Assembly (NCBI RefSeq): GCF_000576575.1
Contig: NZ_AWQS01000022.1
Location: 1 to 34,602 of the forward strand
Direction of reading: 5' to 3'
DNA from: Intrasporangium chromatireducens Q5-1
GTDB taxonomy: Bacteria; Actinomycetota; Actinomycetes; Actinomycetales; Dermatophilaceae
Length of the DNA: 34,602 bases
Shown: one piece after another, positions 30,205 to 34,602 of the stretch
Layout of the letters: each line of letters begins with the position of its first letter
Numbering within the stretch: position 1 is the first letter of the stretch
Notes under the pieces: generated by a model
Seen by the model: only the letters and a program-made list of their open reading frames with translations
The model's database searches: none
What the model was told of the DNA's origin: nothing
Position numbers and translations under genes: made by a program

Positions 30205-31134
30205 TCAGTCGTTCATGGCCTTGATGATCATCACCGCCAGGCTCACCCGGTCGTGCCCGTCCGGGTCCTGCGCCGCCTCCACCGCGTTGTCGGCTTCCCG
30301 CACGATCGTCCAGGCCCGAGCCCGGCCCTCGTCGATGCCGGCGCGCTCGCAGATGATCTCGAGTCGGCGCCGCAGTGCCCACCGGATCTCCGAGCCGGTC
30401 CCCAGCTCGTCCGCCCGGTTCCACAGCGACGGTGCGACCTCGAAGGCCGGGTCGCCGGCCATCGGCTTCGGGTCGATCACGAGCCAAGGCGCTCGGTAGG
30501 CGCCGAGCACGTTGCCGTAGTGCAGGTCGGTGTGGAGCAGCCGATCCTCGACGGGGGGACGCGTGACGAGCTCACGGGCGAGCGCCGCGGCCTGGTCGAG
30601 GTAGCGCCGTGGCATGACGGGTGGTGCCGCCCGCAGCTCGACGGCCTGGCGCTCGGCATAGTCGACGAGGCGAGGCAGCCGGGGATGGGGCGGGCGCCGG
30701 AGCGTGCCGAGCAGGCCACCGATGACCTCGCAGGCGGTGTCGACGTCGACGCGGTGCAGGTCGCGGTGGTGCAGGTGCTCGAGGAGCATCGCGAAGCGGG
30801 TGGGGTCCGCCCGGTAGAGCCGGACCGCGCCGTGGCCGTTCCAGACCTGCAGCGCGAGGGCCTCGGTCGCCGCCTCCGGGTGCGGCCAGCTGACCTTGAG
30901 GACCGCCTCCTCGCTGACGCCGGCCAGTTCGCGGTGCGAGCCGAGCAGCCGGACCGGCAACGCGATCGAGCAGACGCCGGTCATGGCCTGACCGATGGGC
31001 TCCAGCTCCCACTCCGCGAGCAGGTCGGCGAGCAGGCGCGGCAGGTCGTCGACCCAGTCCTCACCCGAGACGTACCCGTCGGCCGGGTAGCTGCTGACCC
31101 GCTGCACGAAGTGCGCGGGGATGAGGTGGATCAC
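30205..31134 (-). CDS. APH(6)-like aminoglycoside/hydroxyurea phosphotransferase family protein
   Basis: 309 residues. The C-lobe has LLHTDLHYGNVL (catalytic HxDxxxxN) and APWLVIDPKPMAGDPAFEVAPSLWNR (the DPK metal motif and the PxxGDPAFE segment of the PF04655 family of streptomycin 6-kinases and relatives). The N-lobe VLKVSWPHPEAATEALALQVWNGHGAVRLYRADP has the usual Lys and glutamate. Family members phosphorylate aminoglycosides or related compounds, but many chromosomal actinobacterial copies have no shown resistance role. The start is GTG 31134, overlapping the TGA of the upstream DUF4439 gene (GTGA), with GGAGGG upstream. The two are co-transcribed. Confidence 0.8.
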   Translation of the reverse strand: MIHLIPAHFVQRVSSYPADGYVSGEDWVDDLPRLLADLLAEWELEPIGQAMTGVCSIALPVRLLGSHRELAGVSEEAVLKVSWPHPEAATEALALQVWNGHGAVRLYRADPTRFAMLLEHLHHRDLHRVDVDTACEVIGGLLGTLRRPPHPRLPRLVDYAERQAVELRAAPPVMPRRYLDQAAALARELVTRPPVEDRLLHTDLHYGNVLGAYRAPWLVIDPKPMAGDPAFEVAPSLWNRADELGTGSEIRWALRRRLEIICERAGIDEGRARAWTIVREADNAVEAAQDPDGHDRVSLAVMIIKAMND

Positions 31135-32123
31135 GAACGTGGCCCTCCGCTGGTGCCGGGGAACGCGGTGAGAGGTATGCCGTGCGCCGGGCCGAGCGCC
31201 TGGACGCGGGCACTCCACGCGGCCACGTCCTCGAGCCCCGTCGCGGACCGGGCGAGGGCCACCAGCTGTGGCGTCGCGCCGATGGCGCGCCTCAGCAGGT
31301 CCCTCGCGAGCCGCGCCGCCGCCTGGGGCGTCGTCACGGCATACGGCAGCTGCCAGCCACCGGGCAGGGCCCGGCCCGGCAGGCCGGGACCGACGTCGTC
31401 GAGGAGGGCGTGAAGCGCATCGAGCGTCGTCAGGGCGGCCGTGCGGGCCGCTCCCGTCGACTGGGCGGCCACCACCTCGAAGCCGTAGACGAGGGGCGCG
31501 GTGCGCTCGAGGAGGGCGGCGTGGACCGCCTGAGGGCTCTGGCCCTGGGGCGCCACGGCTGCGCCGAGCCGGACAGCGGCGGCGAGTCGAGCGGACGTGG
31601 CGGACAGCAGGATGAGGCGGGTGTCGGTGTGCGACCCGGCCAGTGACTCCCACCGCCCGGTCGGCAGCTCGGCCAGCACGGCTCCCAAACGTCCCGGTCC
31701 GGTGGCGGCGTCGGGCGCCGCGGTGGTGCTCGCCGTCGCGCCCGACACGGGGGCGGTGTTGATCACGGCCGTCGGGACGCCGGCGTTGGTCAGCCGTCCG
31801 GTCAGGACGACGTCCTGCTCCCGGAGGACCCGGACCGCGTCCCGCACCGCGGCGTGCGCGGCTTCCGCAGCCGGGAGTGCCTGCGCCTGCGCGACGAGGA
31901 CCCGGACGTCCCGGACGAAGCCGACGAGCAGGTCCTCGTCCGCGACCTTCTCCCGCGTGGGCACCGGCGGTGGGGGCTGCGGCAGGTCGAGCCGCACGCC
32001 GCAACCGGCCAGCAGGCCCAGCGAGGCAACCACGCCGGTGAGCACGGCGCGGCGCGGCACCCCGACGGGTTCCCGCTCCCGGGAGTGGCACGGCCCGACT
32101 CCCGCCGTGCCGCCCGAATCCAT
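31131..32123 (-). CDS. DUF4439 ferritin-like-domain lipoprotein
   Basis: 330 residues. The N-terminus PRRAVLTGVVASLGLLAGC contains RR followed by a hydrophobic stretch and the lipobox LAGC, so it should be exported (possibly by Tat) and lipid-anchored. Then comes a low-complexity linker and two helical segments: VADEDLLVGFVRDVRVLVAQAQALPAAEAAHAAVRDAVRVLREQDVVL, and the C-terminal LAGSHTDTRLILLSATSARLAAAV...VYGFEVVAAQSTGAARTAALTTLDALHALLDDVG, which matches DUF4439. In actinobacteria this gene usually lies next to rimP, divergently, as here. The function is unknown. ATG 32123 is 6 nt after a CATGAT hexamer. Confidence 0.75.
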   Translation of the reverse strand: MDSGGTAGVGPCHSREREPVGVPRRAVLTGVVASLGLLAGCGVRLDLPQPPPPVPTREKVADEDLLVGFVRDVRVLVAQAQALPAAEAAHAAVRDAVRVLREQDVVLTGRLTNAGVPTAVINTAPVSGATASTTAAPDAATGPGRLGAVLAELPTGRWESLAGSHTDTRLILLSATSARLAAAVRLGAAVAPQGQSPQAVHAALLERTAPLVYGFEVVAAQSTGAARTAALTTLDALHALLDDVGPGLPGRALPGGWQLPYAVTTPQAAARLARDLLRRAIGATPQLVALARSATGLEDVAAWSARVQALGPAHGIPLTAFPGTSGGPRS

Positions 32124-32129
32124 GGCCAG

Positions 32130-32135
32130 ATCATG
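32130..32135 (-). promoter_or_regulatory. Candidate leaderless-type -10 box for the DUF4439 gene
   Basis: CATGAT on the minus strand at -12 to -7 from the ATG at 32123. It keeps A2 and T6 of TANNNT; weaker than the other examples. Confidence 0.35.
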
Positions 32136-32175
32136 GCATGCCCCGCTCGCGGGGCAGGGACGGCACGGGTTCCCC

Positions 32176-32181
32176 TAGAGT
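32176..32181 (+). promoter_or_regulatory. -10 box for the rimP-nusA operon
   Basis: TAGAGT, with a transcription start expected near 32188 and a leader of about 50 nt. AGGAGG (32222-32227) lies 9 nt before the rimP ATG. The DUF4439 promoter faces away on the other strand. Confidence 0.5.
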
Positions 32182-32236
32182 TGTGCTCACACGTGCCCAC
32201 GGGCACTCATTCGAGAAGAGCAGGAGGCAGGGTCAC

Positions 32237-32797
32237 ATGAGTGCGGCCGATCAGGTGAGGGAGTCGCTCGAGCCGGTCATCGCACCCCTCGGCCTCGTGA
32301 TCGAGGACGTCACCGTGTCTCCCGCGGGCAAGCGGCGCGTCGTGCGGGTGCTCGTCGACACCGACGTTCGCGGCATCGCCGTCGCGGACACGAGCAGCGT
32401 CGTCGAGCCGCTCTCCCTCGACCGGGTCGCCGAGGCGACCCATGCGGTGAGTGACGCGCTGGACGCGTCCGCGGCGCTGGGTGACGCGCCATACGTCCTG
32501 GAGGTGTCCTCGCCCGGGGTGGGACGCCCGCTCACCACTCGTGACCAGTTCCGACGCAACGTCGGCCGTCTCATCACGGTCGAGCACGCCGGTGGGGAGG
32601 TCACCGGGCGCCTCGTTGCCGTGGGCGCCGACACCCTGACCCTCGAGGTGCCTGCAGCCAAGAAGTCCCCGGAGCACTCCGTCTCCGTCGACCTCGGCGA
32701 CGTCCGCAAGGGCACCGTCCAGGTCGAGTTCACGCGGAGCGACCACGACGAACCAGAGGCATCGGACGACTCGTCGGATGCGGAGGAGGAGAGCTGA
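32237..32797 (+). CDS. rimP: Ribosome maturation factor RimP
   Basis: 186 residues. It helps assemble the 30S subunit. The N-terminal domain [35 protein letters not shown]... and the [28 protein letters not shown] segment are the family signatures, followed by the SH3-like C-terminal domain and an acidic tail ([18 protein letters not shown]). AGGAGG lies well spaced before the ATG. The stop overlaps the nusA ATG (TGATG), indicating translational coupling. Confidence 0.95.
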
Positions 32798-33801
32798 TGG
32801 ACATCGACCTGGCTGCGCTGAGAGCCCTCGAACGCGAGCGCGACATCAGCCTCGAGGTGCTCATTCCCGCGATCGAGCAGGCGCTGCTCGTGGCCTACCA
32901 CCGCACCGATGGCAGCTACCGGATCGCGCGGGTCGAGCTGGACCGCAAGTCCGGGCACGTCACGGTGTGGGCACGCGAAGAGGGCGAGCTGTTGCCCGCG
33001 GAGGAGGGCGAGCGCCCGGAGCGCGGCGAGCCGGGCCCCGAGTTCGACGACACCCCCGAGGGGTTCGGCCGGATCGCCGCATCGACCGCCCGCCAGGTCA
33101 TCGTGCAGCGCCTGCGCGACCTCGAGGACGAGGCGGTGCTCGGCGACTTCAAGGGCCGGGAGGGCGATGTCATCTCGGGCGTCGTCCAGCAGAGCCAGGA
33201 CCCCCGCAACGTGCACGTCGACTTCGGCGCGGTCGAGGGGCTCCTCCCGCTCGCCGAGCAGGTGCCGGGGGAGAGGTACACCCACGGCGAGCGAGTGCGC
33301 TGCTACGTCGTCAGCGTGAAGCGCGGCCCCAAGGGGCCGCAGGTCGGGCTGTCTCGCACCCACCCCAACCTCGTCCGGCAGCTGTTCCGGTTCGAGGTCC
33401 CGGAGATCGCGGATGGCACGGTGGAGATCGCCGCCCTCGCACGGGAGGCCGGCCACCGCACGAAGATCGCCGTCCGCTCCACGATCCCGGGAGTCAACGC
33501 CAAGGGCGCCTGCATCGGGCCCATGGGTGCCCGCGTGCGGGCTGTCATGACCGAGCTGCGTGGGGAGAAGATCGACATCGTCGACTACTCCGACGACCCC
33601 GCGCGCTTCGTCGCCGCGGCGCTCAGCCCCGCCCGGGTCCAGGCCGTCGAGATCGTCGACCCGGTCGCGCGCACGGCCCGCGTCACGGTCCCCGACTACC
33701 AGCTCAGCCTGGCGATCGGCAAGGAGGGGCAGAACGCCCGTCTCGCCGCGAAGCTCACCGGCTGGCGCATCGACATCCGGCCGGACACCGAGCACGAGTG
33801 A
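32797..33801 (+). CDS. nusA: Transcription termination/antitermination protein NusA
   Basis: 334 residues, actinobacterial short form without the C-terminal acidic repeats. The N-terminal RNA-polymerase-binding domain (about 1-115) is followed by an S1 domain (about 125-195: [49 protein letters not shown]) and two KH domains: [50 protein letters not shown], and the C-terminal [28 protein letters not shown]. It binds elongating polymerase and RNA. The rimP-nusA-ylxR-infB order is standard. Confidence 0.97.
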
Positions 33802-33858
33802 CACGGCGAGCGCCACACCGTCGCACCAGCCGGTCAGCGAGCACGACCCCACACGCGG

Positions 33859-33864
33859 TAGACT
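33859..33864 (+). promoter_or_regulatory. Candidate internal -10 box for ylxR-infB
   Basis: TAGACT ends 5 nt before the GTG at 33870, so ylxR and infB may also be read from a leaderless transcript starting here as well as from the rimP promoter. Confidence 0.45.
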
Positions 33865-33869
33865 TGTCT

Positions 33870-34244
33870 GTGGCCGACCGGTCTGGACTCCGCGCTGAGC
33901 CGTCCCGCACCTGTGTGGGATGTCGACGCACGGATAGCTGGTCGGCACTGCTGCGAGTCGTCGCGGATCAGGCGAAGGACGAGAGACCCCTCGATGGGCC
34001 GATCATCCTCCGCCCCGACCCGGGACATCGGATGCCCGGGCGGGGTGCGTGGTTGCACCCGACACCCGAGTGCTTCGAGCTGGCGGTGCGCCGGAAGGCG
34101 TTCGGTCGTGCCCTGCGCCTGCAGGCCGCGGTCGACCTCCACGCCGTCGCCCACCACGTCGGGGCCCACCCGCAGCACGCGGTCGTCGCACTCGCGCCGA
34201 CCATCACGTCAGAAGAACGGTCAAACGCACATGAGGCGGGTTGA
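33870..34244 (+). CDS. ylxR: YlxR-family RNA-binding protein (RnpM-like)
   Basis: 124 residues. It begins ADRSGLRAEPSRTCVGCRRTDSWSALLRVV with the conserved CxxCR (C15, C18), then PGRGAWLHPTPECFELAVRRKAFGRALRL, the family's GRGAW and FGRAL region. In Bacillus YlxR (RnpM) binds RNase P RNA; elsewhere it is described as a nucleoid- or RNA-binding regulator. The C-terminal 30 residues (LHAVAHHVGAHPQHAVVALAPTITSEERSNAHEAG) are less conserved. The start is GTG 33870, supported by the adjacent -10 box; TTG 33864 is an alternative. The stop lies inside the first mini-ORF of the infB leader. Confidence 0.88.
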   Translation: MADRSGLRAEPSRTCVGCRRTDSWSALLRVVADQAKDERPLDGPIILRPDPGHRMPGRGAWLHPTPECFELAVRRKAFGRALRLQAAVDLHAVAHHVGAHPQHAVVALAPTITSEERSNAHEAG

Positions 34245-34296
34245 AACGCGATGAGCACCCGATGAGTACTCAGCGATGAGCAAGCCCCAGTTGTAA
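34231..34296 (+). promoter_or_regulatory. Chain of four overlapping mini-ORFs in the ylxR-infB leader
   Basis: Four tiny ATG-started frames follow one another: 34231-34254 (MRRVETR), 34251-34265 (MSTR), 34262-34279 (MSTQR) and 34276-34296 (MSKPQL). Each of the first three ends in CGA TGA, and that TGA overlaps the next ATG as ATGA. The first begins inside the 3' end of ylxR in another frame. The last ends with TAA 14 nt before the infB hairpin. The core is three copies of CGATGAG at 34249, 34260 and 34274. A terminating ribosome could restart at each junction. Whether they are translated is not shown. Confidence 0.6.
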
Positions 34297-34310
34297 CGAC
34301 GGTTCGACCA

Positions 34311-34337
34311 CTCCTGTCGGTCGGGCCGAGACAGGAG
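34311..34337 (+). promoter_or_regulatory. Hairpin that sequesters the infB ribosome binding site
   Basis: CTCCTGTC (34311-34318) is the exact reverse complement of GACAGGAG (34330-34337). The 3' arm contains the AGGAG Shine-Dalgarno sequence 4 nt before the infB GTG at 34342, so the folded form would block initiation. An 11-nt loop allows a further 3-bp CGG/CCG helix. Confidence 0.6.
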
Positions 34338-34341
34338 AAAT

Positions 34342-34602
34342 GTGGCCAAGGTCCGAGTCTACGAGCTCGCCAAGGAGCTCGGAGTCGAGAGCAAGGTTCT
34401 GCTCGCACACCTCAAGAGCCAGGGAGAGTTCGTCCGGTCGGCGTCGTCGACCATCGAGCCCCCCGTAGTCCGCAAGATCAAGGAGACGTTCCCGCAGGAG
34501 CACGCTGCGGCCAGCGGGAAGCCAGCCGCCCGGAAGACGGCCAAGAGCGCGCCGTCCGCGCCGGCCAGGGCCGAGGCAGCCGCTCGGCCGAGCGCGCCGG
34601 CA
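34342..34602 (+). CDS. infB: Translation initiation factor IF-2, N-terminal part (3' end outside the window)
   Basis: 87 codons to the window edge. [50 protein letters not shown] is the conserved IF2-N module found at the N-terminus of actinobacterial IF-2. It is followed by the Ala/Pro/Lys-rich linker ([30 protein letters not shown]) that precedes the GTPase. The GTP-binding domains are not in the window. GTG 34342 with AGGAG 4 nt upstream is chosen; an ATG at 34340 is in another frame. Confidence 0.95.

Follow-up and report, generated by a model that had tools for sequence, protein, structure and literature searches.

A conserved chain of ATGA-linked mini-ORFs upstream of infB in Actinomycetes: a candidate termination-reinitiation relay that may sense IF2

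The leader of infB, the gene of the translation initiation factor IF2, carries in Actinomycetes a conserved chain of very short overlapping reading frames. We consider it moderately probable that this leader acts as a termination-reinitiation relay, which would tie infB translation to the reinitiation capacity of the cell and plausibly serve the autoregulation of IF2. The leader was studied in a stretch of 34,602 nt from Intrasporangium chromatireducens Q5-1 (contig NZ_AWQS01000022.1; the whole stretch is referred to as the window), and it was compared with infB loci gathered by protein match from relatives, from named genomes, from the class and from the phylum.

In the window, where all features described here lie on the forward strand, the leader contains four mini-ORFs of 7, 4, 5 and 6 codons, which are joined by ATGA and of which the first three end in CGA TGA, exactly as had been described in the earlier note on this DNA. 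Mini-ORF1 occupies positions 34231-34254 (ATG AGG CGG GTT GAA ACG CGA TGA, encoding MRRVETR), mini-ORF2 34251-34265 (ATG AGC ACC CGA TGA, MSTR), mini-ORF3 34262-34279 (ATG AGT ACT CAG CGA TGA, MSTQR; its start overlaps the stop of mini-ORF2 by ATGA) and mini-ORF4, the last one, 34276-34296 (ATG AGC AAG CCC CAG TTG TAA, MSKPQL). The TAA stop of mini-ORF4 (34294-34296) is followed by 3 nt and then by a predicted hairpin, S1 (34300-34328), in which CGGTTCGACC (34300-34309) pairs with GGTCGGGCCG (34319-34328). A rival, lineage-restricted hairpin, S2 (34311-34337), would pair CTCCTGTC (34311-34318) with GACAGGAG (34330-34337) and would thereby mask the infB Shine-Dalgarno (SD) sequence AGGAG, which we read from the sequence at 34333-34337. 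The infB gene starts with GTG at 34342, and its 5' end (34342-34602) is cut by the end of the contig. A search of positions 31000-34602 with the covariance models of Rfam 15 gave no match up to E = 1, and neither a terminator-like site nor a sigma-70-type promoter was found in 33800-34602.

Mini-ORF1, which had been counted as a member of the chain, is probably not part of it. Among the leaders that were read it is present only in the window's own leader (L001) and in that of a congener (L002), and the relatives have AAGGCGGG or AAGCGGGT in its place; we thus rejected it, as genus-specific, from the mechanism discussed below. The conserved chain consists of mini-ORF2 to mini-ORF4, starting in the window at 34251, and it has from two to five members in other leaders.

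No second chain of at least three ATGA-linked ORFs (each of at most 8 codons) is present on either strand of the 34.6-kb window. The flanks of relatives (loci L031-L091; 338 kb, both strands counted) contain 55 such chains, every one of them within an infB leader. When looser criteria were applied (ATG or GTG starts, overlaps of -4 or -1, at most 12 codons), a chain of at least three linked mini-ORFs was detected in 167 of the 171 non-redundant Actinomycetes infB leaders, in comparison to 1.5% of dinucleotide shuffles. The chain of mini-ORFs is real and far beyond chance.

The chain was seen by name in Terrabacter, Cellulomonas, Ornithinimicrobium, Micrococcus, Corynebacterium, Nocardioides and propionibacterial relatives, and it is also present in the leaders of small AT-rich genomes. 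Names inferred for further families suggest that Streptomyces (family f37, genus g77) and Mycobacterium belong to the chain-bearing families; the suggestion in the earlier note that Streptomyces carries similar runs before infB is probably right, since the chain occurs in these inferred-Streptomyces leaders. In the Bifidobacterium-type leaders L022 and L065 we observed a reduced chain of two ORFs with a longer last ORF, followed by a different hairpin. A covariance model of the leader, built from 34 leaders, matched 247 of the 297 genomes of the class at E <= 0.01, and the listed matches that were compared with infB loci end at the infB start. In the window's genome the same search indicated a single copy, located at infB (next best E 0.07); a pattern match in the genome's own contig C165, which falls on the beginning of a coding gene and has a spacing of 12 nt and unlinked frames, was rejected. 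Matches of the model outside the class were weak and were also discarded, the best one (G367) looking like a chance hit in, or antisense to, coding sequence. The leaders fetched from outside Actinomycetes with a readable infB start showed no such chain when inspected by eye, and many of them have hardly any gap between ylxR and infB.

Next to its mere presence, the geometry of the chain is informative. When all ATGA tetramers were taken, with no demand for linkage, 327 of the 364 spacings between nearest ATGAs were 2 modulo 3, the value that linkage demands, with 11, 14 and 17 nt making up most of them, and the exceptions that were inspected either lay outside the chain or skipped a GTGA link. 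Changes in length were collected from 287 close leader pairs, which are not independent of each other. Of the 18 net length changes seen between aligned ATGA anchors, 15 amount to 3 nt, two to 6 nt and one to 14 nt, the last corresponding to one whole extra mini-ORF, so that the other 17 of the 18 are multiples of 3. Between the last stop and infB only 44 of 215 length changes are multiples of 3, indicating no frame rule there. Counts of gap runs in the pairwise alignments, which were tried as well, proved uninformative inside the chain, where many runs have a length of 1 and are probably compensating gaps, and they were replaced by the anchored net changes.

The links themselves are ATGA or, rarely, GTGA, TAATG or TGATG. 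GTGA replaces ATGA at one link, with the linkage kept, in L141, L142, L158 and L230-L233; the Mycobacterium-like leaders of this set (L141, L142, L230-L233) read ATG AGC ACA CCG TGA, then GTG AAG ... CGA TGA, and then ATG ... TAA. The ATGA frame linkage, on whose conservation in ylxR-infB spacers the earlier reading depended, is kept across Actinomycetes. As judged from the sequence comparisons, the reading-frame linkage of the chain is under selection, and evolution gives good support for its translation; this pattern of spacings, indels and links would not be predicted for a simple nucleotide motif.

Most units of the chain have 4 or 5 codons, and MSTQR and MSTR are the commonest peptides. 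The repeated CGA-TGA ends, which the earlier note had stressed, turned out to be a strong preference and not a rule: of the 254 unique linked mini-ORFs, 139 have CGA directly ahead of the linked stop, and CAA, CCA, GCA and AGA come next in frequency. CGA is decoded by an inosine-containing tRNA, and a weak P-site CGA codon may make it easier for the ribosome to move onto the overlapping AUG. The sequence of the last-ORF peptide varies freely among leaders. The predicted duplexes with the anti-SD indicate that internal mini-ORFs have no SD (mean -4.3 kcal/mol), that the first mini-ORF has a weak SD at most (-7.4 kcal/mol, compared with -6.4 kcal/mol for shuffled sequences), and that infB has a strong one (mean -9.4 kcal/mol).

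The first conserved ATG is preceded by a conserved 5' block (34233-34250 in the window, GAGGCGGGTTGAAACGCG, with the consensus GGAAGCRGGTYGAG; the consensus in alignment A2 is CCGGAAGCGGGTCGA), which lies about 17-18 nt ahead of that ATG and stands where the window has mini-ORF1. It offers a weak SD at best and has no conserved pairing. In family f35 (L147-L156) we also noticed a conserved TTGTGTAAC or CATGTAGGAC 20-40 nt before the block, which look like a possible infB promoter. Coupling of ylxR into the chain was considered and rejected, as no more than 17 of 163 leaders have ylxR joined to it through an overlap of -4 or -1.

Of 177 leaders, 176 have a stem of the S1 type downstream of the last stop, although the search itself favours stems, so that this count is no proof by itself. 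Its 5' arm usually starts 1-5 nt past the last stop, which lies at this arm in nearly all leaders, and 12-19 nt usually remain between its 3' arm and infB. In a sequence-only alignment of 45 diverse leaders, with Corynebacterium and the Mycobacterium-like leaders left out, 94.1% of the cells of S1 were paired and 17 cells were changed on both sides, and at most 58% were paired when the arms were slid; RNAalifold recovered the stem unprompted. The S1 hairpins of Corynebacterium and of the Mycobacterium-like leaders differ in sequence (CTAG..., GAGGCG/CGCCTC). In the window, S1 is the predicted minimum-energy fold of 34297-34341 (-18.6 kcal/mol), in which AGGAG remains unpaired. The alignments and predicted folds indicate that S1 is a general, covarying hairpin beside the infB SD; no conserved fold was found in the stretch of the chain itself.

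In the Micrococcaceae-like leaders L071, L078, L080, L085 and L253, inspected by eye, the last ORF is extended to 23-35 codons, encodes an unconserved peptide and stops at or inside the 5' arm of S1, so a ribosome translating it should melt S1 there. In L253 (genome G040, contig C12) the leader is directly followed by repetitive infB-like sequence that lacks the infB N-terminus, probably as a result of a collapsed assembly.

The hairpin that had been proposed earlier, located 14 nt past the last stop and containing the infB AGGAG in its 3' arm, corresponds to S2. Its pairing is indeed perfect; however, it is not the sole fold, since S1 competes with it at a near-equal predicted energy (-17.7 kcal/mol for S1 versus -18.3 kcal/mol for S2 in the window, computed on a slightly different stretch than above). 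In 35 of 176 leaders, where chance would give about 9, S2 scored above controls with a shuffled loop (p <= 0.05), and these leaders belong mainly to Micrococcales; within this S2 group the sequences of S2 are quite different from each other in L020, L036, L045, L052, L190 and L193. In the MAFFT alignment A3, S2 is displaced by a single base in a part of the rows. S1 and S2 have 3' arms that are 0-4 nt apart (mostly 0-2; 1-2 nt for the hairpins of the window) and their energies are close, and from pseudoknot geometry the close 3' arms suggest that a full S1 and a full S2 should exclude each other.

We also ran folding predictions with the S1 5' region blocked. In the S2 group this raised the predicted cost of opening the SD for natural loops (by +0.95 kcal/mol) and lowered it for shuffled ones (-1.85 kcal/mol); as this group was picked for having S2, the result is a matter of consistency and no independent proof. 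Outside the S2 group, blocking of the S1 arm affected SD opening no more than it did with shuffled loops (+0.44 kcal/mol, versus +0.38 kcal/mol). We further considered a third fold, pairing the 3' arm of S1 with early infB codons (AAG GTC CG). It was rejected, since with the 5' arm blocked the SD is masked less by natural S1 arms than by permuted ones. In several relatives of the S2 group the SD is predicted to be masked even without a ribosome. Class-wide masking of the SD by the S1 loop was rejected, and masking was kept for about 30 leaders, mainly of Micrococcales. The masking of AGGAG by CTCCT, as it had first been proposed, survives as a supported prediction for a part of Micrococcales and fails for the class as a whole, in which S1 leaves the SD free.

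In the mechanism that we prefer, a ribosome would start at the ATG at 34251, make a peptide of four residues and terminate at CGA-TGA. The terminating ribosome would then re-initiate at the overlapping ATG, and the cycle would repeat until the last stop at 34294-34296. Termination-reinitiation at AUGA has been demonstrated for ppe2 of M. tuberculosis (PMC11260477); infB is not mentioned in the main text of the M. tuberculosis Ribo-RET paper. A ribosome positioned on the last TAA should cover 34300 to about 34306, melting S1, and should leave 34311 onward free. In the lineage of the window, the melted S1 would free its loop to pair with the infB SD as S2, masking it. This would establish a negative feedback: at high reinitiation capacity a ribosome would reach the last stop, and infB translation would be lowered. 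Since successive reinitiations are needed to reach that stop, the response to reinitiation capacity (IF2, initiator tRNA, recycling) would be expected to be steep.

Initiator tRNA is brought to the ribosome by IF2. Moreover, ejection of short peptidyl-tRNAs from the P site by IF1 together with IF2 has been reported (Karimi 1998, as cited in PMC10192219), which is a further possible way in which the mini-ORFs could sense IF2. The product of infB would thus act on the very steps that the relay repeats. The sensed signal would accordingly be IF2 or initiation capacity, and the most economical purpose would be the homeostasis of IF2 itself; in the preferred version a ribosome at the last stop would lower, rather than raise, infB translation.

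The opposite sign has to be weighed as a serious, if distinctly less probable, explanation, according to which the chain hands ribosomes over to infB and S1 shortens the gap between the last stop and the SD, so that infB translation is raised; feedback, if any, could then come from the ejection of short peptidyl-tRNAs stimulated by IF1 and IF2 at high IF2. Termination-reinitiation usually raises downstream translation (PMC6728339, PMC4833913, PMC11260477), a folded S1 would put the last stop and the SD about 12-20 nt apart, and the peptides of 4-6 residues are, going by the title of Karimi 1998, within the range of short peptidyl-tRNAs. The more open SD of natural arms under blocking and the lack of masking by folding outside the S2 group also agree with such a handover. 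However, infB has its own strong SD and lies about 35-60 nt past the last stop at an unconstrained distance, and S2, in the part of Micrococcales that has it, would oppose the handover.

Two further explanations appear improbable. The chain might only cover the gap between ylxR and infB with ribosomes and so prevent Rho-dependent termination; as ylxR almost abuts infB in many non-Actinomycetes leaders, Actinomycetes would have acquired an extra gap that needs covering, but the rarity of ylxR overlaps with the chain speaks against such a bridge, and the uniform units of 11 or 14 nt, the fixed stop-to-S1 geometry and the covariation of S1 would be superfluous for coverage. Marginally weaker still is the idea that CGATGAG is a protein-binding motif in RNA or DNA with incidental open frames, since, although this motif recurs and the sequence of the S1 arms (GGTCC/GGACC) shows unusual conservation, the spacings follow 3n+2 with length changes in multiples of 3, the linking starts are either ATG or GTG, the CG before ATGA is often lost while linkage is kept, TAATG or TGATG substitute for ATGA in some leaders, and the chain has no conserved fold.

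Several known systems share a part of the features of the infB leader. The stops and starts of the chain overlap or adjoin in different frames, which is the defining arrangement of termination-reinitiation (TeRe) coupling. Coupling by NTGA overlaps, as in M. tuberculosis uPPE2-PPE2 (PMC11260477; surveyed in PMC6728339), has in common with the infB leader the 4-nt ATGA or GTGA overlap and internal starts without SD, together with a presumed forward hand-over of ribosomes. Whereas uPPE2-PPE2 is a single link of two genes, the infB leader has serial links between frames of 4-6 codons, the last of which stops at a hairpin, about 45 nt short of the target gene.

The yeast GCN4 leader also has serial short uORFs, and in both cases output is expected to depend on repeated reinitiation and on the supply of initiation factors and initiator tRNA. 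In GCN4 the uORFs are widely spaced and are read by scanning 40S subunits; the infB leader, in contrast, belongs to a bacterium, has overlapping frames and controls the gene of an initiation factor itself. By this analogy, the leader might tentatively be seen, at somewhat less than even confidence, as a bacterial counterpart of GCN4, a class-wide multi-step termination-reinitiation counter through which infB would steeply read out reinitiation capacity (IF2 itself), with the reading passed to the SD by the hairpin at the last stop.

Actinobacterial leader-peptide attenuators (trp, ilv, cys; PMC1262725) likewise have a short translated leader frame with its stop at competing hairpins. In contrast to them, the infB leader has no run of regulatory codons (no single-amino-acid run is present in MSTR, MSTQR or MSKPQL), no intrinsic terminator in 33800-34602 and an unconserved last peptide, and its control is presumably exerted at translation initiation. 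The LEU element upstream of leuA in Actinobacteria (PMC1262725) shares an upstream ORF and a fold in which the SD takes part and which may be a pseudoknot or an alternative structure; it has, however, a single ORF whose leucine-codon run pairs with the SD and no ATGA-linked chain, and the infB leader has no leucine run and precedes a different gene.

The infB leader shares its kind of target, an initiation-factor gene, with the control of the E. coli nusA-infB operon and with the autoregulation of E. coli infC (IF3). The latter acts through the AUU start of infC. The mechanism here is a different one, infB having an ordinary GTG start and a strong SD. E. coli infB is also known to be cold-induced (PMC6511841).

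In the open-access papers searched, no earlier description of the infB leader was found. We therefore provisionally regard the infB relay leader as new, resembling as a kind TeRe coupling and leader-peptide control, and in its logic GCN4.

To our knowledge, how the level of IF2 is set in bacteria outside E. coli is poorly understood. A class-wide leader, present in Corynebacterium and, by inferred names, in Streptomyces and Mycobacterium, allows IF2 homeostasis and serial reinitiation to be tested directly in strains that are in routine laboratory use. Biochemistry would gain from it a natural multi-step substrate for reinitiation, and it may respond to antibiotics that act on initiation, termination or recycling.
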